Source of the DNA: Williamsia faeni
GTDB taxonomy: Bacteria; Actinomycetota; Actinomycetes; Mycobacteriales; Mycobacteriaceae
DNA: 64,000 nt
Reading direction: 5' to 3'
Assembly: GCA_003202005.1 (NCBI GenBank)
Contig: QJJF01000004.1
Coordinates: 215,661-279,660, forward strand
The notes beneath the pieces were generated by a model. The model was not told where the DNA came from. It searched no databases and saw nothing but the letters and a program-made list of their open reading frames with translations. Made by a program: the position numbers and the translations under genes. Numbering within the stretch: position 1 is the stretch's first letter; each line of letters begins with the position of its first letter. Of this stretch, positions 1-31,382 are shown one piece after another.

Positions 1-4
1 GCAA

Positions 5-78
5 GGCCCTGTGGCGCAGTTGGTTAGCGCGCCGCCCTGTCACGGCGGAGGTCGCGGGTTCGAGTCCCGTCAGGGTCG
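5..78 (+). tRNA. tRNA-Asp (anticodon GTC)
   Basis: A 74-nt cloverleaf. The acceptor stem begins GGCCCTG and closes with CAGGGTC plus discriminator G. The anticodon loop is CTGTCAC and the T-loop is GTTCGAGTC. CCA is not encoded. The mature sequence is identical to the copy at 31175-31248. Confidence 0.97.
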
Positions 79-122
79 CAAGTAATTGCGACTAGGTATT
101 CAGGTTCGCCTGGGTGCCGTTC

Positions 123-196
123 GGCCAGGTAGCTCAGTTGGTACGAGCGTCCGCCTGAAAAGCGGAAGGTCGTCGGTTCGATCCCGACTCTGGCCA
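123..196 (+). tRNA. tRNA-Phe (anticodon GAA)
   Basis: A 74-nt cloverleaf with an acceptor stem starting GGCCAGG, anticodon loop CTGAAAA, T-loop GTTCGATCC and discriminator A. CCA is not encoded. It lies 44 nt after tRNA-Asp, so the pair is probably co-transcribed. The mature sequence is identical to 31293-31366. Confidence 0.97.
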
Positions 197-229
197 CAGT
201 ATTTAGGTCAGAGAGGTTCTGACCAGAAG

Positions 230-258
230 ATCCGGTTCTCATCGAGAACCGGATTTTT
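230..258 (+). terminator. Rho-independent terminator of the tRNA-Asp/Phe unit
   Basis: A perfect 11-bp inverted repeat (arms 230-240 and 244-254) with a 3-nt loop ATC is followed by a run of T. It lies 33 nt beyond tRNA-Phe. The second tRNA copy at 31 kb lacks this structure and has a tandem repeat there instead. Confidence 0.9.
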
Positions 259-362
259 GCGTCTTCGGTGTACGACAAGCTCGCGCGGTTTGGTCGGCGC
301 CGCAGCCGGGTAATCGCCATACCCGCCGCCAACCAGGTGGTGGGACAACGGTGGAGGCAATG

Positions 363-551
363 ATGTCGAACAAACCGGGCGAGCATCTGCAAACCGAGCC
401 GCAATCCGAACGCGGCGAGCCGGGCTCACGGGACACCGGGGCCGACGGACCGGGTGGCGGTCCGGCCGATCGTCCCGCTGGATCGTTCGAACATGAGGAG
501 GTCCAGTCCACTGACGAAGATGCTGGGACCGACGATTCTCGTGAAAGCTAG
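363..551 (+). CDS. Small acidic, low-complexity hypothetical protein
   Basis: Encodes 62 residues rich in Gly, Glu, Asp, Pro and Ser, with no hydrophobic segment, so the chain is probably disordered and soluble. The ATG at 363 is chosen because a GTGGAGG element lies about 6 nt upstream; an ATG at 360 is also possible but sits too close. A central Gly-Pro-Ala-Asp-Arg-Pro-Ala-Gly stretch recalls small uncharacterised proteins of related actinobacteria (from memory, not searched). It stands alone between the tRNA terminator and the convergent hydrogenase-cluster end. No function can be assigned. Confidence 0.55.
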   Translation: MSNKPGEHLQTEPQSERGEPGSRDTGADGPGGGPADRPAGSFEHEEVQSTDEDAGTDDSRES

Positions 552-584
552 TGTCGCGGCAGCGTATGGCCGGCGATCTCCGTA

Positions 585-1286
585 CTAACCGACGAGCCAC
601 CGATTGACGAGATCGAGTGTCACTGCTGTCCCCAGTTCCAACGCCTCGACGTCCGCCGCGCCGAGCTGCCCGCACACCCAATCCCAGTGCGCTGAGACCA
701 CGTCGCCCTCGGCCGGCGCGGCGGTGAGTGCGGAGCCACCCTTGCGCCACCGCACGACCTCCGTCGCCGGCGTGCCCAGCGCCAAGCTCCGGCCGTCGTA
801 CTTAAGCGGTGCCGACATCAACTCGACCTCATCGCCGACGACTCGCTGCACCGCCCCCCAGCGAATCCGGCAAGACTGCAGCACACGCAGCGGCGTCGAC
901 GGATCTCCTCGTCCGAGAAATCGCACCCATGGGTACACCACGCAGACATGAAAGCTGTGGTGTGCGGTCGCGGACGGCACGTCCGCAAGCAACCCGGTCG
1001 ACTGGCCGGCGAACGCGGCGCGCAAACTGTCGAGGAGCGCGTCGGGATCGAGATCGTCGAGTAGCGGGCCGCCGACCCAATAGGTGCGCACCACAGCCGG
1101 ATCAAGCGGGTCGGCGCCGGTCGCGGCCGCGATGGCCTCCAGGTACGGCCAGGCGCCGTTGAATTCTCGTGCGCGGTCCGCGAGTTCGTCGAGACCTGTC
1201 CCCTCCGGCCCGCAGTAGCCGAGTTCATTTGGTGGAAAGGCGTACCGGGCGAACAGCTCGTGGCCCTCGCGCGGTGACATGCTCAT
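585..1286 (-). CDS. DUF6390-type hydrogenase-cluster protein
   Basis: A 233-residue protein with no transmembrane segment or signal peptide. Near the N-terminus it has the stretch Phe-Ala-Arg-Tyr-Ala-Phe-Pro-Pro-Asn, which I associate with the family DUF6390 found beside hyp genes in actinobacteria. That assignment is recalled and was not searched. Its ATG follows the hypE stop codon directly (TGA then ATG), which makes it the last gene of the hydrogenase transcript. A second ATG two codons in is an equally good start. The position suggests an accessory or maturation role for the group 1h hydrogenase; the biochemical role is unknown. Confidence 0.75.
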   Translation of the reverse strand: MSMSPREGHELFARYAFPPNELGYCGPEGTGLDELADRAREFNGAWPYLEAIAAATGADPLDPAVVRTYWVGGPLLDDLDPDALLDSLRAAFAGQSTGLLADVPSATAHHSFHVCVVYPWVRFLGRGDPSTPLRVLQSCRIRWGAVQRVVGDEVELMSAPLKYDGRSLALGTPATEVVRWRKGGSALTAAPAEGDVVSAHWDWVCGQLGAADVEALELGTAVTLDLVNRWLVG

Positions 1287-2363
1287 TCAACAGATCCGCG
1301 GAAGTTGCTCGCCCACCGGCAGATCCACCACGCGTGTCCCGCCGAGCGCGGTGCGGGTCACGACAATGCCCGGATGCTCCGCGACGCACGTGCCGATCAT
1401 CGTCGCGCGGGTGCCGAGCGGATGCGCCCGCATCGCGTCGAGAATACGTTCGGCGTCTGCGGCGGGGACGAACGCGACGAGCTTTCCTTCGTTGGCCACA
1501 TAGAGCGGGTCGAGTCCGAGCAGCCCGCACGCGTCGCGGACCTCCTGCGGGATCGGCAGCGCCCGCTCGTCGAGTTCCACCCCGACGCCGGCGGCCTTCG
1601 CGATCTCGTTGAGCGTTGCGGCCACTCCGCCGCGGGTCGGGTCGCGCAACACATGCAGGTCCGCGCCGGTGTCCAGCATGGTCGCCACCAGACCGTGCAG
1701 CGCGGCGGTGTCACTCGACACGGTCGTGCCGAACTCGAGTCCTTCCCGGCAGCTCAGCACCGCAATGCCGTGCACACCGATGTCACCGCTGATCAGCACC
1801 GCGTCACCCGCGGTCGCACGGTCGGGCCGGATATCGGCACGCGGGTCGATCAGCCCGATCCCCGCGGTGTTCACGTACACCCCGTCGCCGTGTCCGCTGT
1901 CGACGACCTTGGTGTCCCCGGTGACGAGCTTGACGCCCGCGGCGAGCGCAGCCGTGCCCAGCGCGCGGGCGACGTGCGCGATCTCTTCCAGCGCAGTGCC
2001 CTCCTCGAGGATGAACGCGGTCGAAAGCACCAGCGGCTGCGCGCCCGCCATCGCGAGATCGTTGACCGTACCGTTGACGGCGAGGTCGCCGATGCTGCCG
2101 CCCGGGAACACAAGTGGGCGTACCACGAACGAGTCGGTGGAAAACGCCAACCGGGTGCCCGCCACCTCGACCACCGCCGAGTCACCGAGCGCGGCGTCGG
2201 CGGCGGGACCGAACGCGGGCAGGAACAGGTGCTCGATGAGCTCGGCCGACATGGCACCGCCACCACCGTGACCCATCACGATGTTCGGCGCATCCCGCAA
2301 TGGCAGGGGACAGACCCACGCCCCCGGGTCAATGGATGCAGCATCGATCGACACGTCAGGCAT
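1287..2363 (-). CDS. hypE: HypE, hydrogenase cyanide-ligand synthesis dehydratase
   Basis: HypE receives a carbamoyl group from HypF on its C-terminal cysteine and dehydrates it with ATP to a thiocyanate. This is the source of the CN ligands of the NiFe-site iron. The 358-residue protein has the expected length, a glycine-rich GHGGGGAMS segment at residues 31-39 typical of the PurM-like ATP-binding fold, and the essential C-terminal tail Pro-Arg-Ile-Cys at 355-358. The start overlaps the 3' end of hypD by 8 nt and the stop abuts the DUF6390 gene, so translational coupling is likely. It acts in the cytoplasm with HypF, HypC and HypD. Confidence 0.97.
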
Positions 2364-3456
2364 GGGTCACCTCGAGCCGTCGGTACAGGTAGTACGCGGC
2401 GCATGCGCCTTCCGAGGAAACCATGGTGGCGCCCAACGGATTTCGAGGGGTGCATTCTTTGCCGAATGCGGCGCACTCGTGTGGTTTGATGTGGCCCTGC
2501 AGTACCTCACCGGACCGGCAGATCGCGGACTCGGCCGTGTGCAGGTCCTCGACGGCGAAGCGGTACTCGGCGTCGAACTCTCGATACTTCGGGGCGAGTC
2601 GCCAGCCGCTGCGGGGAATCGTCCCGATGCCCCGCCAGGCGCGGTCGGTGACTTCGAAGACATCGGCCAGCATCGCCTTCGCCGGTTCGTTGCCCTCCGC
2701 CCGGACCGCGCGCGGATAGGCGTTCTCCAATTCGTGGCGTCCGGATTCGAGCTGAATTACGGTGCGGCGGATGCCCTCCAGGATGTCGAGCGGTTCAAAA
2801 CCGGTCACCACGATCGGCACCCGGTACTTCTCGGTGAGCGGCGGGTATTCGGCGGTACCCATCACGCAGCACACGTGTCCGGCGGCGAGGAAGGCTTGGA
2901 CGCGACAGTCGGGTGACTCCATGATGGCGGCGACTGCGGGTGGCACGAGAACGTGCGAGACCAGCAGCGAAAAGTTTTGTACCCCGAGTCTTTTGGCCTG
3001 ATAGACGGTCATTGCGTTGGCGGGAGCGGTGGTTTCGAACCCGATACCGAAGAACACCACCTGCCGGTCCGGGTTGTCGCGGGCGATGTTGAGCGCGTCC
3101 AGCGGCGAATAGACGACGCGGATGTCGCCGCCCTCGCTCTTGACCCGGAACAGGTCCTTGCTGCTACCGGGCACGCGCAGCATGTCCCCGAACGAGCAGA
3201 AGATCACGTTCGGCCGCGCCGCGATCTCGAGCGCCTTGTCGATGATCTCCAGCGGCGTGACGCATACCGGGCAACCCGGGCCGTGAATCATTTCGATCTC
3301 ATCCGGAAGCAACTGGTCGATCCCGTGCCGGATTATCGAATGTGTTTGCCCACCACAGACTTCCATGATCGACCATCGCTTGTCCGTGGCGGCGTGAATC
3401 TGGTCGAGCAGCTTGCGGGCCAGATCTGGATCGCTGAACTCGTCGAGATACTTCAT
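2356..3456 (-). CDS. hypD: HypD, Fe(CN)2CO scaffold protein
   Basis: HypD forms the scaffold with HypC on which iron acquires its CN and CO ligands. The 366-residue sequence carries CGGQTH at 34-39 and GPGCPVC at 59-65, the two redox/cysteine motifs of the family. A C-terminal cysteine set (around Ala-Ile-Cys, His-Glu-Cys, Lys-Glu-Cys and Gly-Ala-Cys) should bind the [4Fe-4S] cluster. Its start overlaps the upstream hypC stop by 4 nt (ATGA). All key residues appear intact. Confidence 0.97.
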
Positions 3457-3776
3457 GATGCCGTCTTTCCGTTCGGCTGGGGCACTTCAGTCGGTGAGGG
3501 CAGACCGGCCTGCTTGGCCGCGATCTCGAAGCCGTCGCCGAACTCTTCCTTCAGCACGCCGAGGTGTTCGAACTCGGCGAGAGTCGAAATAGCGGATTCC
3601 TCATCGAGCCGCTGGATCGCGAAGCCGACGTGCACCATCACGTACTCGCCGACGGAGGCGTCCGGGATGTACTGCAGGCACACGTCTTTTCGGACGCCGC
3701 CGAAGTCGACCACCGACATCAGCGTGCCGTCCCGGTCCTCGAGGCTGAGGATTCTGCCCGGTACCGCAAGACACAT
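3453..3776 (-). CDS. hypC: HypC/HybG-type chaperone, copy 1 (long form)
   Basis: A 107-residue HypC family protein starting Met-Cys-Leu-Ala-Val-Pro-Gly. The Cys2 exposed after Met removal is the iron-binding residue. HypC carries the Fe(CN)2CO unit between HypD and the apo large subunit. Compared with the second copy (80 residues), this one has an extra C-terminal tail of about 25 residues rich in Gly, Pro and Lys. It is coupled to hypD by an ATGA overlap and lies 9 nt after hypF. The tail may affect partner choice (inference). Confidence 0.95.
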
Positions 3777-3785
3777 AGCGACCTC

Positions 3786-6002
3786 CTAACTCGCGTTTCC
3801 GACCATGACTTGCCCGAGCGCGAGCCCGCCGTCATTGGGCGGCACCCGCCGGTGGGTGAGCACATCGAACCCGTGTTCCATCAGCAACGCGGTCGTGCGG
3901 CGCAGCAGCGTCGGGTTCTGGAAGACACCGCCCGACAAAGCAACGGTGTGCTGACCGGCGCGCTCGGCGAGCGCGACGATCAGCGCAGCAATGGCTTCGT
4001 GGAATCGCGCGGAGATGACGCCGGGTGGCACTCCGCTCCGCACGTCGTGGACGATCGAGCGCAGGACCGGGGTCGGGTCGAAACCATCTGTCCCGATGTC
4101 GAATTTGTACCCATCGGAGACAATTCCGCGACCGATGCCCTCGAACTCGATCGCGGCCTGGGCTTCATAGTCGCAGACCTGCCGGACTCCCGCGAGCGCG
4201 GCGACCGCGTCGAAGAACCGGCCCATGCTGGACGTGGGCACGCTGCCCAGTCCGGTGTCGAGTTGGTGCGCCAGCACCCGGCGTTCGGTGGGCGGGCACG
4301 CTGCCACCGCGGGCAGGTCCTCGTCCCACCCGACCCCGGCGGCGCGCAGGTGCGCGAGCGCCATCCGGTAGGGCCGGCGAACGGCGAGGTCGCCGCCGGC
4401 GAGTGGAACGTAGGTGAGATGGGCGAGACGGTGAAATCCCTTGTAGTCGGCGAGTAGCACCTCACCGCCCCAGACCGCGCCATCGGGTCCATAGCCGGTG
4501 CCGTCGAACGCGAATCCGGTGACGCGCTGCGAACCGTCGAGTCCGTGTTCGGCCATGACGGCTGCGATGTGGGCGTGATGGTGCTGCACGGTCCGAACCG
4601 GCCTCGTAGCGGCATGTCGGCGGGCCCACTGGGTGGAGCGGTATCGCGGATGTGCGTCCGCGACCAGGAGGGTCGGGGCGACGCCGGTGAGTTGTTCCAG
4701 GTGCTGCTCGGCCGCGGCGAACGCCGAAAGAGTGGCGAGATCGTCCATGTTGCCGATGTGTCCGCTGAGCCAGGCGTAGCGGCCGTCGGCGAGCGCGAAC
4801 GTGTTCTTCAGGTCACCTCCGACCGCGAGTGTCGGCACCACCGGCACCGGAAGTGCCACGGGTAGCGGGGCGTAACCGCGGGAGCGCCGGAGCGGGAACT
4901 CCGGGCGCAGCACGGAGTCATCACACGGCACCAGGATCGGGCGGTCATGGCGCAAGAAGCCGTCGGCGAGCCCCGCCAGCCGCTCGCGAGCGTCCTCGTC
5001 GGTGTGACAGATCGGCTCGCCCGCCAGGTTCCCCGAGGTCATCACCACCGCGTCCGGCATGGGGTCTTCGAGCAGCAGTTCGTGCAGCGGAGTGTAGGGG
5101 AGCATGACGCCGAGGTCGGGGTTGCGCGGTGCGACCGCCGCGGCGACTGGAGCGTCCGGACGGCGGGGCAGCAGCACGATCGGGTGTTGCACGCCGGTGA
5201 GCAGGCGATCGTCGTCGATCTCGACCAATGTTCGAGCGCAGTCCAGGTCGCGCACCATCACCGCAAACGGCTTGTCCCCGCGCTGTTTCCGCTCGCGTAG
5301 CCGCGCGACCGCGTCGTCGTCGGTGGCGTCGCAGGCGAGGTGGTAGCCGCCGATCCCCTTGACGGCGAGGATCTTCCCGTCGCGGATCAGGTCTCGCGCG
5401 GCCGCGAGTGCTGCTTCGCCCACCAGCTCGCCGAAGTGCAGTGTCGGCCCGCAGTTCGGGCAGCAGATCGGCTGGGCGTGGAAGCGACGGTCGGCGGGGT
5501 CGGCGTACTCGTGGGCGCAGTCGGCGCACATACCGAAACCGGACATCGCGGTGCTCGGCCGGTCGTAGGGCAATGCGGCGATGATGGTGAACCGTGGTCC
5601 GCAGTTGGTGCAGTTGACGAACGGATGCCGATAGCGGCGGTTGGTGGGATCGCGCAGCTCGGCAGCGCAGTCAGCGCACATGGCGACATCGGGAGACGCG
5701 AGGGTCCGGGCGTTGCCGTCCCTGGTGGTGTCGGCGATGTGGAAACCTGTGCCACCGGCCGGCGGAAGGTCTCGCCGCGTCAGGGATTCGATGACGGCGA
5801 GCGGCGGTGGGCTGCTGCCGAGTGCGTGTTCAAACGAGTCGAGATCGGCTGCATCGCCTTCGATTTCGATGAGGGCGCCGGACGGGTCATTTCGCACGGA
5901 TCCGGTTAGCCCCAGCGCAGCGGCGGTGGTGTAGACGAAGGGACGGAAGCCGACGCCCTGCACGACGCCGCGCACCTCGATCCTTCGCCGCACCCGGTTC
6001 AT
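3786..6002 (-). CDS. hypF: HypF, carbamoyltransferase of hydrogenase maturation
   Basis: HypF converts carbamoyl phosphate and ATP to carbamoyl-AMP and transfers the carbamoyl group to HypE. The 738-residue protein has the family order: an N-terminal acylphosphatase domain (GVVQGVGFRP near residues 11-20), two zinc fingers built from four CxxC pairs (around residues 105-190), a YrdC-like domain, and a Kae1-like domain with HHHAHIA. The ATG at 6002 is chosen because it overlaps the stop of the upstream hypC (ATGA) and leaves the acylphosphatase domain complete. A longer in-frame reading upstream only shadows that hypC. Confidence 0.97.
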   Translation of the reverse strand: MNRVRRRIEVRGVVQGVGFRPFVYTTAAALGLTGSVRNDPSGALIEIEGDAADLDSFEHALGSSPPPLAVIESLTRRDLPPAGGTGFHIADTTRDGNARTLASPDVAMCADCAAELRDPTNRRYRHPFVNCTNCGPRFTIIAALPYDRPSTAMSGFGMCADCAHEYADPADRRFHAQPICCPNCGPTLHFGELVGEAALAAARDLIRDGKILAVKGIGGYHLACDATDDDAVARLRERKQRGDKPFAVMVRDLDCARTLVEIDDDRLLTGVQHPIVLLPRRPDAPVAAAVAPRNPDLGVMLPYTPLHELLLEDPMPDAVVMTSGNLAGEPICHTDEDARERLAGLADGFLRHDRPILVPCDDSVLRPEFPLRRSRGYAPLPVALPVPVVPTLAVGGDLKNTFALADGRYAWLSGHIGNMDDLATLSAFAAAEQHLEQLTGVAPTLLVADAHPRYRSTQWARRHAATRPVRTVQHHHAHIAAVMAEHGLDGSQRVTGFAFDGTGYGPDGAVWGGEVLLADYKGFHRLAHLTYVPLAGGDLAVRRPYRMALAHLRAAGVGWDEDLPAVAACPPTERRVLAHQLDTGLGSVPTSSMGRFFDAVAALAGVRQVCDYEAQAAIEFEGIGRGIVSDGYKFDIGTDGFDPTPVLRSIVHDVRSGVPPGVISARFHEAIAALIVALAERAGQHTVALSGGVFQNPTLLRRTTALLMEHGFDVLTHRRVPPNDGGLALGQVMVGNAS

Positions 6003-6241
6003 ATCGGCTCGCCTCGGCCCATCAGGTTCAGTCCGCTGAGTGCGGCTTCGGCACCGGCGCGGTCGGTTCGTTCCACGACGAATCCCAGGTGGATGATCAC
6101 CCAGTCGCCGGGACCGAAGGTTTCCTCCGGCAGCATGCCGACGTTGACCTTGCGCTCGGCGCCGCCTACGTCCACGATCGCGAGCATGTCGCCGTAGCCG
6201 TCGAGCATTCGCACCACGCGGCCGGGGATTCCGAGGCACAT
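5999..6241 (-). CDS. hypC: HypC/HybG-type chaperone, copy 2 (short form)
   Basis: An 80-residue HypC family protein beginning Met-Cys-Leu-Gly-Ile-Pro-Gly with the conserved Cys2. It ends just after the conserved beta-barrel, without the tail seen in copy 1. The stop overlaps the hypF start (ATGA) and the start lies 3 nt after the protease gene. Having two hypC genes around one hypF, with only one large subunit in view, suggests divided roles: one copy for the HypD complex and one for the large subunit, as proposed for HypC and HybG elsewhere. The division here is inferred. Confidence 0.95.
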   Translation of the reverse strand: MCLGIPGRVVRMLDGYGDMLAIVDVGGAERKVNVGMLPEETFGPGDWVIIHLGFVVERTDRAGAEAALSGLNLMGRGEPI

Positions 6242-6244
6242 GGC

Positions 6245-6706
6245 TCAGCCCGCCAGGTCCGCGAGGACGGTCTCGAGCGCCTCGACAGCGGGACCGACCG
6301 CGGCCGACACCGGTTCGCTCAGCCCCATCCTCTCGCCGACGTCGGCCGCCTCGCAGCCGACGACGACGGTGCGTGGTGGACTGCCGCCGAGCGCGCGCAG
6401 ACTCGCGAAGACGGCTGACGGGTCCATGCTGTGGGCGTCGAGTCCGGGTGTGCCGGGCAGCGTCTCGTGGTCGGCCTCGAAGACCCGCAGCGCACCGGGA
6501 TGACCGGTGGACGGCACCGCGTCGATGAGCACGAGGGCGTCCCAGTCGTCGAGCAGGTCGTAGGCCAGGTGCATCCCGCGGATCCCGTAGTCCTCGATCC
6601 GCACACCGTCGCGCTCCGAACCGGTCGCGCGGCGTACCACCTCGGGCCCGAATCCGTCGTCCCCGAGGAAGATGTTGCCGATACCGGCGACCAGTATTCG
6701 CGTCAC
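6245..6706 (-). CDS. Hydrogenase maturation endopeptidase (M52 family)
   Basis: A nickel-dependent protease that removes the C-terminal peptide of the large subunit after the NiFe site is filled. The 153-residue protein opens with GIGN-three residues-GDDGFG (residues 8-20). Asp16/Asp17, Asp62 and His92 align in position with the nickel-binding Glu16, Asp62 and His93 of E. coli HybD. The start is GTG at 6706, overlapping the stop of the 39-residue membrane peptide gene as GTGA. Its predicted substrate is HhyL, which has a 22-residue extension past its last metal-binding His. Confidence 0.95.
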   Translation of the reverse strand: MTRILVAGIGNIFLGDDGFGPEVVRRATGSERDGVRIEDYGIRGMHLAYDLLDDWDALVLIDAVPSTGHPGALRVFEADHETLPGTPGLDAHSMDPSAVFASLRALGGSPPRTVVVGCEAADVGERMGLSEPVSAAVGPAVEALETVLADLAG

Positions 6707-6822
6707 ATCTGGCGAATCTTGAGGTACCGCTGAATGTCCGGGATCGACTTGATTCCGATCACCACACCCAGCACGACGACGACTACCGCCGTGAATGTCG
6801 CGAACTCACCGACGAGTTTCAT
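6703..6822 (-). CDS. 39-residue single-span membrane peptide of the hydrogenase cluster (DUF6893-like)
   Basis: A complete 40-codon frame (ATG at 6822, TGA at 6703) coupled to both neighbours: ATGA overlap with the stop of the 411-residue gene and GTGA overlap with the protease start. The peptide has a short N-terminus, a hydrophobic helix at residues 8-24 with five valines in a row, then a basic amphipathic tail with Lys25, Arg32, Lys35 and Arg37. Small proteins of this kind next to group 1h hydrogenases are called DUF6893 (recalled, not searched). Membrane anchoring or assembly of the hydrogenase complex is a plausible role. Confidence 0.85.
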   Translation of the reverse strand: MKLVGEFATFTAVVVVVLGVVIGIKSIPDIQRYLKIRQM

Positions 6823-8054
6823 GGTTGCGCTCCTATCGGTTCGACTTCTTCTGGTGCGAAGTACAGGTAACGGCCGTACCAGTCGTGCAGGTCGGCTGCC
6901 GGATCGTCCTCGACGACGACCGCGACGTGCTTGTGCCCGTCGACGTCTTCGTGCACGGACGTGACCCGGGCGGTCTTGCCGTCGAAGAACAGGTCTTGTG
7001 CGTCGGCACGTCTGGATGGATGCAGGCGCACCCTGCTGCCTTTCGCGACCGGCACACCGTTCACCAGCACCGCGTCAGAGTCGGGTTGGACTGCGTTGTC
7101 GGCAAAGGGGTCCCACCAGTCGATGCCGTCCGGAACTTCCGGGATCAGCGAGTGCGGTTCGCGCAGGGTGCCGTGCAGGCGTTGCATCGCCTCGGGCGTC
7201 ATGGCGTCGCACTGGTCGATGATCGAGGCCGCGCGCGGATCGGTGGCGCGGGCCTGCGCCTTCTCCTCGTCGGTCATCGTCATGACCCGGAGTGTGAGGA
7301 TTTCGTCGATCTCGGTCGCGTCGAACAGTGCGCCCTCGCTCTGTTCGGCGACCTCGGGATGGTCGTAGAGGATGATCGGCGAGATCAGCAGCAGGTCGTG
7401 CTCACCGGGCTTGCCGGCCAGGACGGGAAAGCAGCGGTGCTGGGTACACGCGGCAACGGCGGCCTCGGCCTCGGGCGGTGGTTCCAGCAGCGAGACGAAC
7501 TCGCCCTCGGCGATGACGTGAGTGCCGATCATCGGTTGTGCCACATCGCGATTGCGCACTGTGAGGGTGACCCGCCACAGGTCGCCTTCGGGTTCGCTGC
7601 GCACGACGAGTTCTCCGGTCATCGGCTCGCGGGTGCGCACCAACCGTCCACCGTCGACCGGTTCGACGTCGCGCCCGCCCGGCACGTTGAGCGGTATCGT
7701 CTGGTCCAGTCCGGCGACCTCGAATGGCCCGAAGGGCAACTCGCATTCGATGCCCTCGTCCCAGGTGAGCCAGGTCCGGCTAGGTGCGCTCAATTCCCGG
7801 ACCGGCTCGAACCCGCCCGGCCCCGCACGCTCGACCCCGCGGTGTTGCAGTTGCAGGAACCGCACACACAGCGTGATCCGCCCGGTGCAGATGAACTGCG
7901 CTGCAATCGAATCCGGCTCGTCGCCGCCTAGCACACCCCACTGGAATCGGGCGACGTTCTTCATCGAGTCGGCGCGGTACGGGTACAGCAGGTATCCCTC
8001 GTACAACACCGCGTCGGCGATGGTGCGCGCTCGCTCCCAGGCTGCTTCGCTCAT
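6819..8054 (-). CDS. Conserved hydrogenase-cluster protein of unknown function (411 aa)
   Basis: A 411-residue soluble-looking protein with no signal peptide or membrane span. The C-terminal third (about residues 320-411) looks like a separate small beta-rich domain containing GSRVRLHP and later DDP plus aromatic residues. The ATG at 8054 is chosen because it overlaps the stop of the preceding gene (ATGA); upstream in-frame residues are out-of-frame shadow of that gene. No catalytic motif is recognised. Its fixed place between the DUF6084 gene and the 39-residue membrane peptide marks it as a hydrogenase accessory. Scaffold, carrier or assembly roles are all open. Confidence 0.85.
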   Translation of the reverse strand: MSEAAWERARTIADAVLYEGYLLYPYRADSMKNVARFQWGVLGGDEPDSIAAQFICTGRITLCVRFLQLQHRGVERAGPGGFEPVRELSAPSRTWLTWDEGIECELPFGPFEVAGLDQTIPLNVPGGRDVEPVDGGRLVRTREPMTGELVVRSEPEGDLWRVTLTVRNRDVAQPMIGTHVIAEGEFVSLLEPPPEAEAAVAACTQHRCFPVLAGKPGEHDLLLISPIILYDHPEVAEQSEGALFDATEIDEILTLRVMTMTDEEKAQARATDPRAASIIDQCDAMTPEAMQRLHGTLREPHSLIPEVPDGIDWWDPFADNAVQPDSDAVLVNGVPVAKGSRVRLHPSRRADAQDLFFDGKTARVTSVHEDVDGHKHVAVVVEDDPAADLHDWYGRYLYFAPEEVEPIGAQP

Positions 8055-10115: not shown

Positions 10116-10119
10116 GCCG

Positions 10120-11916: not shown

Positions 11917-11933
11917 CGTGCCTTCCTTCGGTG

Positions 11934-12989: not shown

Positions 12990-13098
12990 GGGCTGCAGCT
13001 TTCCGGGACCGGGCGAAATGGCCCCTGCCCTGCCGGAGTCGACCCTCGGCCCACTTGTGCAGGGCTACGTTTTTCTCTACTCCGGGCGGATGATCTTG

Positions 13099-18540: not shown

Positions 18541-18595
18541 GAGATATATCCTTCGGGTTGGATTGGGCTGCAATAAGATTGGGTCAAACGAGTGG

Positions 18596-19477: not shown

Positions 19478-19513
19478 GGCGTTACCTCGAATTTCTGGTT
19501 GCTGGGTGGGTGA

Positions 19514-20503: not shown

Positions 20504-20656
20504 TGTGTGTCCTTTTCTGCCTGCCTGCCGGCCGTTGTGCCGGATGTGATGTAGATGACATTACGGAGCTGGGGAGGGGGTAAACTATTCCTCGCGGGAC
20601 GGAGTTTTATTCAAATCGGGACATGAGGAGATCTGCCTCACATCTATGGAGGTGTC
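20504..20656. promoter_or_regulatory. Divergent regulatory region of the qor operon and AraC gene
   Basis: A 153-bp gap holds both promoters and presumably the AraC operator. A purine-rich imperfect repeat (GATGTGATGTAGATGACAT, 20539-20557) is the clearest candidate site. A GGAGGT element precedes the GTG start of the regulator. Confidence 0.4.
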
Positions 20657-21661: not shown

Positions 21662-21720
21662 CCCGGGAAGAACACCTGTTCAGCCTGAACGCGCCGGAAG
21701 CGCTCGCGTGCTTCTGTCAG

Positions 21721-22943: not shown

Positions 22944-22957
22944 TCCGGTGATTCCTT

Positions 22958-24331: not shown

Positions 24332-24423
24332 CCACCGAGAATGGCAGCGGTCCCGGCAATTCCACTGGCAGGAAGCTGTGGATCCGCTGTGAGCGCCTGC
24401 AGCAATCTGGTCGCAGCGGCTCG

Positions 24424-25779
24424 TTAGATGCCGGCGCCGATGCTGTATTGGCCCTTTGTGTGAATGTTCAAGTCCGGCAGCCGATGTGCGACGGGTGCCT
24501 GCAGCCCGAGGTTCTCGCGAAGTGTTGATCCCGGGTATGCGTCGGGATAGCTGCCCCGGTTCTGCAGTTCGGGTACGAGTCGGTTGACGACGTCGTCGAA
24601 TCCGCCAGGTACAGAGTTGGGCGTGAGGTTGAGACCGTCGATGGCGCCGCATCGCACATAGTGCGTCAATTCGTCGGCCACAGAGTCCGGGGTGCCGACG
24701 AACTCGACGGTCTTGTTCAGGTGGGCCACCAATCCTCGAATCGACAGTCCGCGCTCCTGCGCGAGCTCCCGCCACTGTCTCGCGGTGTGTAGCGGCCTAT
24801 CACGGCTGTTGACAACTCCGTGGGTGGTGGTCTGGTCGGCCTTGACCGGATCGAATGCAGGTAGAGGTCCATCGATGTCATGGTCGGAAAGGTCGCGACC
24901 CCAAACACTTTCGATCACCGCGATGATCCGCCGGTCGGTCCAGGTGTTCTCGTAGAACCAGCGCGCCTTGTCATGCGCTTCGGCTGTCGTGTCGCCCAGG
25001 GTGATGTGCGCACCGGGGATGATCTTGATCTCGTCACGTCCTCGGCCGTAGGCGTGCAGACGACGGGTCAGGTCGCCGGCGAACTCGAGTGCCGGTTCCA
25101 GTGCGAGGTAACGGGAGAACACTGCTTCGGCATGGCGGGCGGCAAAGTCTCGGCCCTCGTCGGATTCGCCGGCCTGGAACAGCACCGGATGCACCTGGGG
25201 GCTCTGTGGGACCGACGGCTGCGCAACGACGTCGTAGAAGTCGCCGTGGAAGTCCACCGGCTGCTGATCCCAGAGCCGCTGTGCGATGGTCAGGTATTCG
25301 AGCGCGTGCCGGTACCGGTCTTCGTTGCGCAGGTATCCGCCCTTGCGGAAGTTCTCACCGGTCCAGGCGTTGTCGGTGGTCACCAGGTTCCAGCCGACTC
25401 GTCCTTCGCTGAGCAGGTCGACGGTTGCTATGCGCCGTGTCAGGTCGACCGGATCGCTGTACGTCGTATTCAGTGTCGCCACGAATCCGATTCGTTCGGT
25501 GACCGCTGCCAAATGCGAGAACAGAACCAACTGATCGGGTCGCCCGGTCACCACGGTGTCGGTGATCCGTCCGAGATGTTCGCGTAGACGTTGACTGTCT
25601 CCCAGGAAGATCGCGGTGAACAGCCCGCGTTCGGCTGTGCGGGCCAGCTGCGCGAAACTTTCGAACTGGTAGTAGATTTCCGGGCTTTCCGCCTCGTCCC
25701 ACACGTAGTTCGGCCCGAAGGGAAAGAACCCGTTGAGATGCAGTCTGGCGTCCGGTCGCTGATCGTCCGAGGTGGTCAT
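24424..25779 (-). CDS. NtaA/DmoA-type FMNH2-dependent monooxygenase
   Basis: A 451-residue luciferase-like flavin monooxygenase of the NtaA/SnaA/DmoA/DszA subfamily, characterised by NGFFPFG near the start, the GWNLVTT strand and HNGDFYDV-like FHGDFYDV. These enzymes attack C-N or C-S bonds of chelators, sulfides and heterocycles with FMNH2 from a separate reductase. The start overlaps the upstream luciferase-like gene by ATGA, so the two are co-expressed. No dedicated flavin reductase lies alongside, though the divergent nitroreductase might supply FMNH2. Confidence 0.92.
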   Translation of the reverse strand: MTTSDDQRPDARLHLNGFFPFGPNYVWDEAESPEIYYQFESFAQLARTAERGLFTAIFLGDSQRLREHLGRITDTVVTGRPDQLVLFSHLAAVTERIGFVATLNTTYSDPVDLTRRIATVDLLSEGRVGWNLVTTDNAWTGENFRKGGYLRNEDRYRHALEYLTIAQRLWDQQPVDFHGDFYDVVAQPSVPQSPQVHPVLFQAGESDEGRDFAARHAEAVFSRYLALEPALEFAGDLTRRLHAYGRGRDEIKIIPGAHITLGDTTAEAHDKARWFYENTWTDRRIIAVIESVWGRDLSDHDIDGPLPAFDPVKADQTTTHGVVNSRDRPLHTARQWRELAQERGLSIRGLVAHLNKTVEFVGTPDSVADELTHYVRCGAIDGLNLTPNSVPGGFDDVVNRLVPELQNRGSYPDAYPGSTLRENLGLQAPVAHRLPDLNIHTKGQYSIGAGI

Positions 25780-26861
25780 CGGCTCGCTCCCGTCTCCTGT
25801 AGATGTGTTGCGGCGTAGCGGCTCCGCGGCCGCGGTAGCCCGAACTGTTCGCGCAACGTCAAGCCGGGTCGTGGTCTTCGGAGTAGGCCTGCGGCTTCGA
25901 GTGCGGGCGCCACGTCGCGCAGCAGCGACGGGAGCTGAGCATCGGGTTCGGTGGGGTAGAGCACAACTCCGTCGACGTGACGGCGCAGCCGATCAAGCAG
26001 CGCCGGGATCGTGGAATCGTCGCTGCTGCAATGTAACCGCTGCTCACCACGGATTGCCGACTCGCTGCTGTCCGAGACAACGATCTCGGCCAGCACGCGG
26101 GCTGTGCCGGCACTGCGTGCGCGTTCTGCTGCCCCGATCAGTTCCAGCTCGGTCCCCGCGGACACCAGTGCGACATCCACGCCGGCCGAACCCAGATCAA
26201 CCGGTGCGAATACGGGCGGCTGCCCTTGCACCGGCCGCGGCATCAGCGCCGGACCTCTGATGTCGAAGAACTCACCGGTGCCGTCGATGTAGTGGATCTT
26301 GTCCGCATCGAGGAAGCGGCCACTGCGTGCGTCGGCGATCAGGGCGCCGTCTTCCCAGGAATCCCAGAGCCGGCGGGTGGTGTCGATGATTGCCGCGGCC
26401 TCGCGTTGCGCGGTGCGGATATCGGGCGCCGAGGTCGAAAAGGCTTGTGCCCATGAGGTGGAGACATCGATTGTTGCGAGCCAGCCCGCCCGGCCGTTGC
26501 TTCCCCGATCGAGACTCGAGAGTTGATTGGAGACGTGGAATGGTTCGGCGTGGGTGGTCGGTATTGCCGCAACCAGGCCGATCGCGGAGGTCAGCGCCGT
26601 CGCGTAGGCCGCAACCTCGACGGCGCTGAGCAATTCGTGTTCTGTTGGCGACTCCGGATCACGCGCGCCGAAGACCAAGAAGTTCAGTCCAGCCGCTTCC
26701 GCCGTCTGAATCCGGTCGGGGAGTAAGCGGGGACTGGTTCCGCCACTGCGCAGTGAGAGTCCGACAAGCAGTGAGCCCGTACCATTGGACCAGTTTCCCG
26801 AGACCCCATGACCCCGTGCCTCTTTCGTTGTGGGTCCGGTGTGAGTAGTGTTCGGTGCCAT
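25776..26861 (-). CDS. Luciferase-like (LLM) flavin-dependent oxidoreductase
   Basis: A 361-residue LLM-class protein, divergent from but related in fold to the next gene. It carries a C-terminal LREQFGLPRPR stretch that resembles the end of DmoA-type enzymes (LREN-GLQAP in the partner). The first 20 residues are polar and probably disordered. The ATG at 26861 has a GGAG element 10 nt upstream and overlaps the start of the divergent nitroreductase. A second, weaker subunit or a separate substrate are both possible. Confidence 0.82.
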   Translation of the reverse strand: MAPNTTHTGPTTKEARGHGVSGNWSNGTGSLLVGLSLRSGGTSPRLLPDRIQTAEAAGLNFLVFGARDPESPTEHELLSAVEVAAYATALTSAIGLVAAIPTTHAEPFHVSNQLSSLDRGSNGRAGWLATIDVSTSWAQAFSTSAPDIRTAQREAAAIIDTTRRLWDSWEDGALIADARSGRFLDADKIHYIDGTGEFFDIRGPALMPRPVQGQPPVFAPVDLGSAGVDVALVSAGTELELIGAAERARSAGTARVLAEIVVSDSSESAIRGEQRLHCSSDDSTIPALLDRLRRHVDGVVLYPTEPDAQLPSLLRDVAPALEAAGLLRRPRPGLTLREQFGLPRPRSRYAATHLQETGASR

Positions 26862-27537
26862 GTCAACATCTCCGTCCATTCGTCCATCTGCCGAACCCGA
26901 TTCGCTCGGCCTTCTCGAGGCACTGCAGAGCACCCCTGCGCGCCGATACCTGTCCGAGAGGCCGATCCCGGAGCATGTGCTCTGGGATGTGCTCGATGCC
27001 GCCACTCGGGGGCCGACCGGAGGCAACCGTCAGGCCTGGGGGTGGGTTGTCGTCACCGATCCCGCGATCAAAGAACAGGTCGCTCAGTGGTATCGGGAAG
27101 GCTGGCAGCGCGCCTACGGGCCTCGGCGCGAGGAAGTGTTGGGTGCGGCTCCGTCCGATACCGGGCTCAGTCCTGCGGCCTATCGCGCAACCGAGCACCT
27201 GGCCGATCACATTCAGGAGGCGCCCGTGTGGGTTATTCCGGTGTTGCGCAACGCCGCCGACTCGCAGGATCCGCGACTGGGAGCGTCGGTTTATGGTGCC
27301 GTACAACAGCTCACCCTGGCAGCCCGCGCCCACGGACTCGGCAGCACCCTGACCAGTTTTCATGTCGCGCACGAAGAGGAACTGCGGACGTTGCTCGGAC
27401 TGCCCGCCGACGCGCTGAGCATGGCGCTCATCCCGCTGGGCTACCCGGCTCGGGGCAGGTGGGCACAACCGAAGCGGCAGCCGGTCGAAGCCGTCGTGCA
27501 CTGGAATACCTGGGGCGAAGTTCGACCCCGCGAATAG
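26860..27537 (+). CDS. Nitroreductase family FMN oxidoreductase
   Basis: A 225-residue NAD(P)H-dependent FMN enzyme. RRYLSERP near the N-terminus and TGGNRQAWGW (residues about 46-55) are typical of FMN phosphate and ring binding in mycobacterial nitroreductases. The C-terminal region has LIPLGYPARGRW and a basic KRxP segment. The ATG at 26860 lacks a Shine-Dalgarno, and an in-frame GTG at 26848 is an alternative; leaderless translation is possible. It may reduce flavin for the two divergent monooxygenases or act on its own substrate. Confidence 0.9.
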   Translation: MSTSPSIRPSAEPDSLGLLEALQSTPARRYLSERPIPEHVLWDVLDAATRGPTGGNRQAWGWVVVTDPAIKEQVAQWYREGWQRAYGPRREEVLGAAPSDTGLSPAAYRATEHLADHIQEAPVWVIPVLRNAADSQDPRLGASVYGAVQQLTLAARAHGLGSTLTSFHVAHEEELRTLLGLPADALSMALIPLGYPARGRWAQPKRQPVEAVVHWNTWGEVRPRE

Positions 27538-27548
27538 ATTGCCGGTAC

Positions 27549-27587
27549 CGCTCAGCGTTCGGGGCGCTGTGGGTCGAGCGCTGAGCG
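27549..27587. terminator. Hairpin terminator after the nitroreductase gene
   Basis: 13-nt arms (27549-27561 and 27575-27587), perfect except for one wobble pair, enclose a 13-nt loop. It lies 11 nt past the nitroreductase stop. A second short GC hairpin (27739-27752) abuts the stop of the convergent lipase gene. Nothing else is seen in the 216-bp gap. Confidence 0.6.
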
Positions 27588-27753
27588 TGTTGCACATCTG
27601 ATCAGGTTTACCAGGCAGTTGTCAGGCACGGTACCCAGAGTTTCGCTGCTGCAGACGATTTCGTCACCAGGACGCGCTGGCCTGCGGGTCAGCGTCGTTG
27701 CCGGTTTGAATCAATGAGATCGCAACTGGAGAGTCATCCGCCCGTGCGGGCGA

Positions 27754-28938
27754 TCAACCCAGAAACGGGAGACCCCACGGCCCGCGAGAAATGGACTCGT
27801 CGGCGAACATGGCATCGCCGAACTCGTTCGGCACGTCGGGGGGAGTGATCGCGGTGATGTAGTTGTGCGGTAGGTGGTCGTTGATGGAGACCTGGAACGG
27901 TATCCATCGCAGAACGCTGAATTGACGGGCAGCAAATGCCAGGAAGGATTCGATCACCCGCAACGGGTTTGAGGCCTGGGTGCTGTTGGGCACATCGGCC
28001 CAGCCGTCACCGATCCGGTAGCGCCGCTCGGATCCGAAGTGCGCGAACTCCCCGGACACGGTGGGGGGAAGCTGCGGGACCGGATCGCGGTCGTACACGT
28101 AGCGGTACACCATTGGCCCGAGGTCAGGGCGCCGGTCCGATGCGCGTGCCAATGCTGGTTCACCGATCATAGGTGCGCCGAATGTGTAGGTGCCCTTTAA
28201 TTTTGATGCGATCTCGGAATAGGGTTTCAGGGTCCGCACCATGACGGTGAGCATCGACGCCATGGCGCCGCCGAGGCTGTGGCCGGTGATGTACAGGGTC
28301 TCCATCCGGTTCGGCATCGGGCCGGCCGAGTCCGAGGCTGACGTCGGTGCTTCGTCGGAGTGATCATCGGAATCAAATCGGGATTGCGTTGGTGGTCCCG
28401 GACGGATCGACTCTCCTCGGAGCGCCCGGTTGAGTGCCTTTGCTATCTCAAACCGAGTCGCGCGGACATTACGATAAAAGCCGGCGTGGACGTCGTATTG
28501 GCGTGCTTCTTCGGTGGGGTCGTCGGGGTTGTCGAAATCCACCGTGATCTTGTCCGGATAGACATCGGCATCGGTCAGCCAACTGACCAGGTTCGTCGGC
28601 TCTGTCCCTCGGTACGCCAGAATCACGACGCGGCCGTCTGCGCTTTGGATGAGGTAGGCGGTAGACCTGATGAACATCGCATCGACAGTCATCTCGATTC
28701 CCAGCCACTGGCTTTCCGGCAGCCCCATCCTCGCCATCATCGTCGCTATGGTGGTGCCGTCGGAATAGGCATACCCGGACGCCACGGCAAGGGCGTGGGC
28801 GACAACCGGGTCCCGGCCGGGCTCGGGGGCTACGAGTTTGTCCACCAGGTCGGCGTAGACCGGGAAGGTGCTCGAGGTCGAGGGCATAATCGGCCGAAGA
28901 TCGTCCAACGTTGGGCCGACTCCATGCGCGATCGACAT
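27754..28938 (-). CDS. Class 3 lipase family protein
   Basis: A 394-residue alpha/beta hydrolase of the fungal-type lipase class 3. The nucleophile motif is GHSLGG, preceded by the AYRGTEP oxyanion strand; a DPVPQLPP segment and a late His (NDHLPHNY) fit the rest of the triad. No signal peptide is apparent, so it is predicted cytoplasmic. A stretch of about 35 polar residues before the serine motif is probably a disordered insertion. The ATG at 28938 is preferred over an in-frame TTG six codons upstream. Confidence 0.9.
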   Translation of the reverse strand: MSIAHGVGPTLDDLRPIMPSTSSTFPVYADLVDKLVAPEPGRDPVVAHALAVASGYAYSDGTTIATMMARMGLPESQWLGIEMTVDAMFIRSTAYLIQSADGRVVILAYRGTEPTNLVSWLTDADVYPDKITVDFDNPDDPTEEARQYDVHAGFYRNVRATRFEIAKALNRALRGESIRPGPPTQSRFDSDDHSDEAPTSASDSAGPMPNRMETLYITGHSLGGAMASMLTVMVRTLKPYSEIASKLKGTYTFGAPMIGEPALARASDRRPDLGPMVYRYVYDRDPVPQLPPTVSGEFAHFGSERRYRIGDGWADVPNSTQASNPLRVIESFLAFAARQFSVLRWIPFQVSINDHLPHNYITAITPPDVPNEFGDAMFADESISRGPWGLPFLG

Positions 28939-29085
28939 TCTTCGAGAATATGACAATCGAGTTTGTGCGGCCGGTGTTTCAATAACTCTGACAAGAGCGT
29001 GACGTCTGACAAAGGCTACGAATGCTCAATACCTCTGTGCAACAACCGTTTATCTGGTCAATGTTTGGTAATGCCCGGTCCGGAT

Positions 29086-29532
29086 TCAGTTGCTATAGAC
29101 GCGTTCGACGCGTACGAACACCAGAGCCCGGCCCTGCTCGGCCATCACGCGGTCGTACTCGTCCCAATCATCATGTGTCCCACCGGCAGCGACGAATACC
29201 TCCCGACGGAGCGTGCGCAGACGCTCGTTGTCGAGCCATGGCTGCGGATCGTCGGGACCGGCAATTTCGGCAACGCCTTCCACCGTGGCCCATTTCCAGC
29301 CCTGCTGGAAAGTAGTGGTGACCTGTGGGCGGGCCCGCAAGTTCTTCAGCTTGACCTTTCCGTAGGTGACAAAAGCCAGGACCTGTTCCTTGGTGTTCGG
29401 GTGGGGAAGTAGTCCGACATTGACCATCGACGCTTGAATTGTTCCATTCTCGCGCAGGGTGGCGACCACGGCGAGACCGTTGTTTTCACGGGCCAGGGCC
29501 ACCGCATCTTCGAGGGTGTGATCACTGGACAT
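29086..29532 (-). CDS. PPOX-class (pyridoxamine phosphate oxidase-like) F420 or FMN protein
   Basis: A 148-residue split-barrel protein with ATLRENGTIQASMVNV near the start and a FQQGWKWATVEGVAEI strand, typical of the PPOX F420-dependent group (Rv1155-like). It probably binds F420 or FMN and reduces a small substrate. Its 5' end overlaps the 3' end of the ClC gene by 11 nt, so it follows that gene in the transcript. Confidence 0.88.
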   Translation of the reverse strand: MSSDHTLEDAVALARENNGLAVVATLRENGTIQASMVNVGLLPHPNTKEQVLAFVTYGKVKLKNLRARPQVTTTFQQGWKWATVEGVAEIAGPDDPQPWLDNERLRTLRREVFVAAGGTHDDWDEYDRVMAEQGRALVFVRVERVYSN

Positions 29533-30910
29533 TTTCAGCCTTTTTCTTGAGGGCGGGAACCGAAGCCGGGAGTACGTTGATCAACACGAAAGCAACCGCG
29601 ACGGCGACGACCACCTGCGGGGTCACCGTCACGCCGTCTGCGCCGAGCAACACGACGGCCAGGAGTGCGGAGGTCAACGGGAGCCGCAGCATCGCCGCAC
29701 ACATCGCGCCGATACCCATCCCGACGGCCGGCGCCAAGCTCATGCCCGGCAGTCCGCTCATCGCTATGCCGAGGACGGCGCCGACGAACATCGCCGGGAA
29801 TACCGGTCCGCCGCGGAACCCACCGAGTGAGAGTCCGTACATGAGTGTCTTGCAGCCCAGCAGCAGGATCAACACCCAGACCGAGTAGTCGGCGGCATGC
29901 TCGACCACCAGCGGTAGCGCGTCCTGACCGGAGAACAACACCTGGGTGAAGCTGTTCTCCGAGACGAGTTGATACACCATCGCGGTGAGGCCGATCAACA
30001 GGCCGAGAACCGCCGTCACGAGGATCCGGTTCACATGCACGATCGGGCGCAGGGACAGGCCCATGCTGTGGATGAGCCAGCCCAGAACCGCTGCGATCGC
30101 ACCGACGACGACGGCCCAGGCCAGTGTTGCCACCGTGGGATCCGGCGCCGGTGGAATCGAGGTCAGTGAAAGCGAGAACGTGCCGAGTCCGGTCCAGTCG
30201 TCCAAACCGATGAAGACAAGCGCACCGATTCCGGAGGCGAGGAGACCCGGCACTGCCATCAGACTCAGTGTCGCGCCCCCGATGCCCGCGATTTCCATGA
30301 TCAGGAATGCGGCGAGGAGGGGCGAACCGAGCAACGTACTGATCGCAGTGAAACTGCCGGCTGATGCCATGATGACGACCGCCATCGGTGGCGCATCCTT
30401 TTTCACCAGATGGACGGTCAACGCGGCAAGACCACCGCCGATCGCGATCAGTGGTGCCTCGGGACCGAGGACTGCACCCAGACTCAGTGTGGCAAGCGCC
30501 GCGAGGATGATCCCGGGGAGTTCCTTGTCGACTGGGGGACCCGCGTCGTTGTGGAAACCGAAAGCCGGTGAATGTCCGCCGTTGCCTGGCAAATATCGGA
30601 CTGTCAGTGCGGTCAGGAGCCCACAGAGGACCAACCACGGAACCGGCCACCACGCGGGTGTGCCGCCGCTGAACACGTCCTCGGGAAGGTCGTCGAACAC
30701 GAACTTCTGAATCTTCGATACCGCTGCCAGAAAGCCGTACGCAACGAACGAGATCGGGATACCGAGGATTGCGGCCATGAGCAGTGCCACGAAATAGGGT
30801 TTCGACCGCATTACAGCGATGGGGTCGACCGGTGGCGATTGACTGGGTGCTTGCTTGGCGTCGGGCGGATCAGCGCGTGATGAGCCTGCCGGACTCTGCG
30901 AATCGGTCAC
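29522..30910 (-). CDS. ClC family chloride channel/transporter
   Basis: A 462-residue membrane protein with a cytosolic N-terminal tail of about 35 residues and about ten hydrophobic segments. The selectivity-filter motifs are variants of the family ones: GNGGHSP for GSGIP, GPEAP for GREGP (the gating Glu is kept), and GGFRGGPVFPAMFVGA for the GxFxP loop. It may act as Cl-/H+ exchanger or as another anion permease. The variant filter is common in actinobacterial homologues (recalled), so the ion is not certain. Confidence 0.92.
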   Translation of the reverse strand: MTDSQSPAGSSRADPPDAKQAPSQSPPVDPIAVMRSKPYFVALLMAAILGIPISFVAYGFLAAVSKIQKFVFDDLPEDVFSGGTPAWWPVPWLVLCGLLTALTVRYLPGNGGHSPAFGFHNDAGPPVDKELPGIILAALATLSLGAVLGPEAPLIAIGGGLAALTVHLVKKDAPPMAVVIMASAGSFTAISTLLGSPLLAAFLIMEIAGIGGATLSLMAVPGLLASGIGALVFIGLDDWTGLGTFSLSLTSIPPAPDPTVATLAWAVVVGAIAAVLGWLIHSMGLSLRPIVHVNRILVTAVLGLLIGLTAMVYQLVSENSFTQVLFSGQDALPLVVEHAADYSVWVLILLLGCKTLMYGLSLGGFRGGPVFPAMFVGAVLGIAMSGLPGMSLAPAVGMGIGAMCAAMLRLPLTSALLAVVLLGADGVTVTPQVVVAVAVAFVLINVLPASVPALKKKAENVQ

Positions 30911-31070
30911 GGTGACCAGTGTTGCCGATGTGGACCGGGTTGGTCGGATGATCCGTCAGTGTCACGATGGCGGCGAGCGAGCATCTGGGAGATTCCGCAG
31001 GTCACGGGCCCGATTTCTCACTATCGGTTTCTGTGTCATATGCTGAGTCCGCTCCCAACGGAGAACACCG

Positions 31071-31143
31071 GCCCCCTTCGTCTAGCGGCCTAGGACGCCG
31101 CCCTTTCAAGGCGGTAGCGCGGGTTCGAATCCCGTAGGGGGTA
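31071..31143 (+). tRNA. tRNA-Glu (anticodon TTC)
   Basis: A 73-nt cloverleaf. Acceptor GCCCCCT pairs with AGGGGGT, the anticodon loop is CTTTCAA, the T-loop GTTCGAATC and the discriminator A. No CCA is encoded. It heads the Glu-Asp-Phe cluster, an order known in mycobacteria and relatives. No second copy is visible at the left edge because the window starts there. Confidence 0.97.
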
Positions 31144-31174
31144 CGCATGCCATTGACACCGGCAAGCACAGCAA

Positions 31175-31248
31175 GGCCCTGTGGCGCAGTTGGTTAGCGC
31201 GCCGCCCTGTCACGGCGGAGGTCGCGGGTTCGAGTCCCGTCAGGGTCG
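31175..31248 (+). tRNA. tRNA-Asp (anticodon GTC), second copy
   Basis: Identical over 74 nt to the gene at 5-78. It lies 31 nt after tRNA-Glu. Confidence 0.97.
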
Positions 31249-31292
31249 CAAGTAATTGCGACTAGGTATTCAGGTTCGCCTGGATACCGTTC

Positions 31293-31366
31293 GGCCAGGT
31301 AGCTCAGTTGGTACGAGCGTCCGCCTGAAAAGCGGAAGGTCGTCGGTTCGATCCCGACTCTGGCCA
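31293..31366 (+). tRNA. tRNA-Phe (anticodon GAA), second copy
   Basis: Identical over 74 nt to the gene at 123-196. It is the last tRNA of the Glu-Asp-Phe cluster. No hairpin terminator like the one after the first copy is present. Confidence 0.97.
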
Positions 31367-31382
31367 CAGCATGTAGGTCACC

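Follow-up and report, generated by a model that had tools for sequence, protein, structure and literature searches.

In Williamsia faeni, a cluster of tRNA genes for glutamate, aspartate and phenylalanine (Glu-Asp-Phe) is found twice, and the 31 kb between the two copies carry a [NiFe]-hydrogenase operon. We analysed the two clusters, referred to as L (left) and R (right), in a stretch of 64,000 nucleotides (the window; contig QJJF01000004.1, C4:215661-279660; coordinates prefixed with w are positions in it) within 148 kb read from the same contig, and compared them with 8 congeners, using a comparison set with one genome per species. The account we favour, and consider probable though well short of certain, is that the extra Glu-Asp-Phe cluster lies inside a hotspot of accessory genes, that the two clusters were kept alike by gene conversion, and that the hotspot was filled stepwise. 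Two of the congeners were covered in part (40 kb only for G008, two pieces for G005), so that an absence there is not an absence from the genome. Pfam scans covered 56 distinct open reading frames (ORFs) chosen as likely genes between w585 and w63659, with overlapping and short ORFs partly included.

The two tRNA clusters

ARAGORN placed tRNA-Asp(gtc) at w5-79 and tRNA-Phe(gaa) at w123-197 in L, and tRNA-Glu(ttc) at w31071-31144, tRNA-Asp at w31175-31249 and tRNA-Phe at w31293-31367 in R, all on the forward strand. An earlier note, made from the letters of the window, had described a long direct repeat here, and direct comparison bore this out: w1-210 (tRNA-Asp, spacer, tRNA-Phe and 13 bases past it) and w31171-31380, likewise on the forward strand, are identical at 206/210 positions, in the same orientation and 31,170 bp apart, a match of a length far beyond chance. 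The tRNA genes themselves are identical, as the note had said, with all 4 differences outside them (two in the 43-bp Asp-Phe spacer and two just past tRNA-Phe), and tRNA-Glu indeed stands ahead of the right copy. Similarity is lost after tRNA-Phe, again as described, but it extends 13 bases beyond the gene instead of ending within ten. The figure of 206/210 overstates how recent the similarity is, because 150 of the 210 bases belong to tRNA genes, where little variation is seen even between species; it is the 43-bp spacer that is informative. All 8 congeners have a single cluster, with one match each. At least two matches to the cluster query were obtained in 35 of 401 genomes, 29 of them in two genera (17 in g3 and 12 in g10), a figure that we did not use as a count of doubled clusters because the second matches in g3 and g10 were unchecked and few candidates were scored per genome.

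Directly before window base 1 lies an assembly gap of exactly 100 N (C4:215561-215660), the sole run of N in the 148 kb. Beyond it, to the left, are a tRNA-Glu and a tRNA-Asp, so the second tRNA-Glu that the note had suggested looking for left of the window is present. The 95 bases that end the contig left of the gap equal w1-95 exactly, and an exact 113-bp repeat begins at window base 1. Together with the 100-N gap, these features indicate that both contigs break inside the repeat and that their join results from scaffolding; contig breaks inside repeats are usual in short-read assemblies. The left locus is best read as a complete Glu-Asp-Phe cluster with overlapping contig ends, so that the whole cluster is doubled. 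The additional tRNA-Asp on the left is probably this contig overlap, with a true tandem copy also conceivable.

Comparing L and R part by part showed that their identity is patchy. No differences were found in the tRNA genes and 2/43 differing columns in the Asp-Phe spacer, compared with 25/76 in the upstream 75 bp, 7/32 in the Glu-Asp spacer and 35/67 in the downstream 75 bp. Fisher tests against the Asp-Phe spacer gave 2e-4 for the upstream region, 0.03 for the Glu-Asp spacer and 8e-8 for the downstream region, values that are descriptive only and come from windows picked after the alignment had been viewed. The Asp-Phe spacer common to L and R is unlike that of all 8 congeners and is thus shared within this lineage. 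In this spacer, as under concerted evolution, the copies within the genome are closer to each other than to those of relatives, which is not the case for the upstream region or the Glu-Asp spacer. A simple recent duplication is disfavoured, since all parts would then be expected to show similar identity. Gene conversion that took in the Asp-Phe part of L and R, whether R is an older copy or an imported one, would explain the patchy identity; the strong differences between the flanks also fit an import of R. This pattern, together with a case in another genus (g9, see below) that resembles it in part, supports the alternative offered in the note, an old duplication whose copies gene conversion has kept alike.

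The flanks of the two clusters differ in how closely they resemble the genus. The region upstream of L had blastn matches in all 8 congeners: G001-G003 matched at 93% identity over 54 bp, G007 at 85% over 73 bp and the remaining four at 77–81% over 57 bp. The hairpin with T-run that forms a terminator past the left tRNA-Phe (w204-262, forward strand) matched G001 and G007 at 81–82% over 59–60 bp. In contrast, the region upstream of R (w31015-31070, forward strand) is diverged in the sequence alignment: it is recognisable next to tRNA-Glu, with 85–87% identity over 39–42 bp, and diverges further out. A GATTTG motif, a putative -35 element, lacks its G upstream of R, whereas the G is present in L and 13 relatives of one alignment (14/14); as variants, G009 has GGTTTG in a separate alignment, and one of two clusters of the g9 genome G305 is also without the G. 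Past the right tRNA-Phe no congener-type terminator was found by blastn, and a 21-bp tandem repeat of 5.5 copies (w31381-31496) directly follows the cluster. By eye, this tandem repeat forms a heptad-like repeat in one frame, with no start codon. Because its upstream region and terminator are genus-like (the terminator in 2/8 congeners by blastn), L appears to be the original locus, and the best account of the flanks is that L is native and R an additional copy that comprises the entire cluster and its upstream region.

The five best foreign matches to R were genomes of g9, a genus of the same family, and scored above the congeners. An import of R from g9 was rejected, as the region upstream of R and its Glu-Asp sequence are not shared with g9 in the alignment; the score was put down, by eye, to spacer length.

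Cargo and the variable region

The DNA between L and R holds several gene groups. The [NiFe]-hydrogenase operon (w585-14326, reverse strand; identified by Pfam scans and a structure-match search) comprises DUF6390, hypE-like, hypD, hypC, hypF, protease, DUF5947, NifU-like, large subunit, small subunit, hypB-like and hypA genes. After it come, all identified by Pfam, a NicO-family nickel permease (w14405-15460, forward strand), a BKACE operon with MFS, BKACE, TauD, zinc-type dehydrogenase and AraC-type regulator genes (w16117-21661), a flavin module with ApbE, FMN-binding, ferric-reductase-like and two luciferase-like monooxygenase genes (w21721-27026, reverse strand), a class 3 lipase (w27754-28956, reverse strand), and PNPOx-like and CLC-channel genes (w29086-30910, reverse strand; also by congener comparison). 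The closest solved structure to the hydrogenase large subunit is 5aa5, with 1083 bits against 162 for the next best; we take 5aa5 to be the actinobacterial-type hydrogenase of Cupriavidus necator. The large-subunit ORF (w10120-12762, 880 aa) overlaps the small-subunit ORF (w11934-12989), and its start is probably placed too far upstream.

These groups have different distributions, which indicates that the 31 kb are a composite cargo. The hydrogenase is absent from all 8 congeners, and hydrogenase loci occur elsewhere, in Mycobacterium, Nocardia, Rhodococcus and others. Among the best 80 of 582 hydrogenase matches, 27 loci have a NicO-family gene (36–40% identity) and none has the BKACE operon, with the full 10 kb on the BKACE side available in 69/80 and the flavin module lying mostly past that reach. 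In Tsukamurella the BKACE operon stands alone, with its gene order unchanged but different genes around it, and the BKACE region had no DNA match in the 8 congeners. Short, weak matches to the flavin region were obtained in 3/8 congeners. Relatives of PNPOx and of CLC were each found in 3/8 congeners, at a long distance on the right-hand side of their single cluster. In G001, G002 and G007, CLC is located about 2.8 kb to the right of the monomeric isocitrate dehydrogenase (IDH) gene; in W. faeni it has the same orientation but stands left of R. Homology ahead of CLC stops at w30808-30814. The PNPOx and CLC genes overlap here yet are 35–37 kb apart in G001 and G002, so they were either brought together or split apart. 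GC content is 0.61–0.67 in pieces between L and R and 0.62–0.64 outside, and tetranucleotide distances overlap, so that composition does not distinguish the segment.

The variable DNA reaches beyond these 31 kb. A gene at w-7012 to -5753 stands left of the cluster in 7/8 congeners, the IDH gene (w56443-58800, reverse strand) stands right of it in 8/8 and marks the right edge of the variable region, and in G001, G002 and G003 a gene block matching w41176-49595 lies, with its order conserved, on the right side of the single cluster. The distance from tRNA-Phe to the IDH start is 16.2, 18.0, 18.0, 56.5, 74.1, 95.9 and 99.1 kb in seven congeners, and about 58.7 kb from L here. The genes in between mostly differ among congeners, as in an accessory-gene hotspot. 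From the conserved gene on the left, IDH on the right and the differing lengths among congeners, the variable DNA begins immediately behind L and continues to about w56,400, with R inside it. In the remaining congener, G005, 43 bp of the tRNA-Phe 3' end are repeated 138 kb downstream of the cluster, and IDH follows 29.1 kb further on (about 167 kb in total, part of it not read). This stretch (G005:C5:1471438-1609428) has, by eye, a tyrosine recombinase near its left end and is probably an element integrated at tRNA-Phe.

Among the scanned ORFs right of R is a DUF222 protein (w49859-51565); we assume that this family is sometimes tied to HNH endonucleases. Around its gene, w49765-49917 and w53688-54281 match at the protein level (53% over 51 aa and 64% over 22 aa), which may be what is left of a DUF222-type gene that was duplicated or broken.

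Doubled clusters in genus g9

Two clusters, each with all three tRNAs by ARAGORN, were also found in 5/59 genomes of g9; the pairs lie on one contig in G266, G415 and G427, and on two contigs each in G305 and G383. In the three linked cases, outer genes are common to the loci on both sides, and the right-hand outer gene, by eye an AMP-binding acyl-CoA synthetase, is 92–93% identical. Between the copies lie 0.19 kb without an ORF of 100 aa in G427, 3.7 kb with three ORFs in G266 and 2.3 kb with two ORFs in G415, and these ORFs had no matches across the loci compared. The regions upstream of the second copies differ among these species in 14/90, 14/90 and 21/90 columns, compared with 25–28/77 between the copies within a genome. 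The doubling in G427, G266 and G415 thus looks older than the differences in cargo, since outer genes are shared and the second-copy upstream regions are alike across species while the cargo differs. Patchy homogenisation like that of L and R was observed in two of the three linked species, among them G427, where both inner spacers are identical (0/40 and 0/32) and the upstream regions differ in 28/77 columns. In G305, the spacers differ in 3/35 and 15/32 columns. By analogy with these genomes, the extra cluster coming first and its cargo later is the more likely order in W. faeni as well.

Weighing the explanations

We propose that R is an additional copy of the entire cluster and of greater age than the near-identity of its Asp-Phe part would imply, and that gene conversion between L and R may recently have homogenised tRNA-Asp, spacer and tRNA-Phe while the two stayed diverged upstream, downstream and in the Glu-Asp spacer. 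The 31 kb would be part of a larger hotspot, from just after the left tRNA-Phe to near w56,400, that was filled stepwise with the hydrogenase, the BKACE operon, the flavin module and congeneric genes moved from elsewhere, and not by a single mobile unit; it is the different distributions of the modules that suggest such stepwise filling. R may have originated by local tandem duplication or from imported DNA, with the g9 genomes making a tandem duplication first, and cargo later, the likelier course.

Several points weigh against this account, in addition to the choice of windows for the Fisher tests. The left-hand join rests on scaffolding, the terminator of L had no blastn match in 6/8 congeners, and the region upstream of R is, by eye, about as distant from L as the clusters of other genera are, so that R may conceivably have come in with foreign DNA. 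A congener or strain that has R and lacks the 31 kb is not known, and the proposed sequence of events therefore rests on analogy. Homogenisation is, moreover, not universal in g9: in G266 identity is limited to the Glu-Asp spacer (0/41, with 9/31 for Asp-Phe), in G415 neither spacer is (8/40 and 11/33), and in G383 the spacers differ in 13/25 and 20/35 columns.

Searches for signs of a mobile element gave the following results. Integrase, transposase, relaxase and replication families were not detected by Pfam in the 56 scanned ORFs, and exact 15-mers of the three tRNAs occur only within the clusters in the 148 kb, giving no partial tRNA copies. The exact 23-base spacer pattern had no matches in viral contigs, a set that did not cover the phage collection. 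Megablast against plasmids returned 38 records for w1-25000 and 9 for w25001-50000, none covering 80% of the query. NZ_LR134463.1, a Tsukamurella tyrosinosolvens record labelled as a plasmid, holds the BKACE operon among ruvABC, secDF and yajC; it was considered as evidence for plasmid carriage and rejected, as it looks like a mislabelled piece of chromosome. A second 'plasmid' record of the same strain, with the tRNA cluster, was likewise not taken as such evidence. A plasmid record of Mycobacterium intracellulare does contain a related hydrogenase, and plasmid transfer of the hydrogenase module alone is possible.

One reading in the earlier note was that the 31 kb may be one unit, inserted by duplication of the tRNA locus and excisable as a circle. 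This was not supported, in view of the genus-like flanks of L, the diverged upstream region and missing terminator of R, the lack of an integrase among the scanned ORFs, the continuation of the variable region past R and the mixed distributions of the cargo, although recombination between L and R could possibly delete 31,170 bp as a circle. In a more specific form, a circle with its own Glu-Asp-Phe cluster and about 31 kb would have entered by a single homologous crossover in the cluster and could be excised again. We regard this as unlikely, even though the direct repeats flank the segment exactly and the neighbouring genes fit, those left of L being left of the cluster in 7/8 congeners and those right of R (w41176-49595 and IDH) right of it. 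After a crossover in the Asp-Phe part the native terminator should stand behind R, whereas it is found behind L; L and R should be uniformly alike or unlike on each side of the crossover, but they are alike only in Asp-Phe. In addition, the genes at the right end, PNPOx and CLC, are related to congener genes located elsewhere in the region, and no circle or donor was found in the plasmid searches, nor in viral contigs by the exact spacer pattern.

A large tandem duplication of the cluster and its right-hand region, followed by differential loss that left CLC and PNPOx before R and IDH behind it, would account for CLC lying left of R here and right of IDH in G001, G002 and G007 in the same orientation. 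It is distinctly improbable, as tblastn in the 148 kb detected neither a further copy of CLC or IDH nor any remnant of them, and PNPOx and CLC are adjacent here but far apart in G001 and G002. Still less probable is a misjoin of contigs, with the 31 kb being a separate circle or belonging elsewhere. The 100-N gap in the repeat and the 95-base overlap of contig ends speak for such an artefact, and the assembly graph of a 113-bp exact repeat would also permit a circle and an empty site; however, the right cluster is read without a gap, the scaffolded pairing yields a left locus with both flanks genus-like, and no plasmid replication family was detected among the scanned ORFs. An integrase-type genomic island at tRNA-Phe, a use to which this gene seems to have been put in G005, is very improbable here, given that no integrase is among the scanned ORFs, no partial tRNA-Phe was found by exact 15-mers in the 148 kb, and the repeat consists of whole tRNA genes and not of a 3' end.

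Known frameworks (hotspots, tRNA-flanked islands and conversion between RNA operons) cover most of the case. Hypervariable hotspots between conserved neighbours and without mobile elements were described in 2017 (PMC5635113); the locus shares with them the hypervariable stretch between conserved neighbours and the lack of an integrase among the scanned ORFs, and differs in having tRNA cluster copies at one edge and inside the region. The flexible genomic islands of Methylophilaceae, for which replacement by homologous recombination was proposed, are likewise cargo bounded by tRNA genes, but their flanking tRNAs are Ser and Arg, whereas here the same three-tRNA cluster occurs twice (PMC10872708). 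For the rRNA operons of E. coli, gene conversion between copies has measured rates (PMC8022953); in both systems copies within a genome are alike in patches, while conversion here concerns tRNA genes and is deduced from sequence alone. Islands and integrative elements (ICEs) at tRNA genes are marked by a duplicated tRNA 3' end (e.g. PMC5217437). As in these, variable DNA starts right after a tRNA gene, and G005 looks like such a case; unlike them, the W. faeni locus has no integrase among the scanned ORFs and no repeat of a 3' end only in the 148 kb. The available part of PMC6582537 contained nothing on this locus, and a search at the level of titles, which is no proof of absence, returned none on a doubled Glu-Asp-Phe cluster.

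A bolder idea, which we hold to be speculative and rather unlikely, is that the doubled cluster acts as a self-maintaining cargo bay: copies kept alike by conversion would serve as homology arms, alike also across species, for the integrase-free uptake, swap or deletion of gene sets. Such an arrangement would have arisen at least twice in the family, with the 31-kb hydrogenase segment as the largest filling seen here.

The analysis corrects a tempting reading, as near-identical flanking RNA genes resemble the scar of a recent mobile element and yet can be older copies that are alike in patches. For W. faeni, it suggests that the hydrogenase was a module of its own when it entered the genome, within a hotspot next to tRNA-Phe. 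For the family, the three g9 species with a doubled cluster and no or different cargo offer a natural series in which to study the gathering of genes between tRNA copies.

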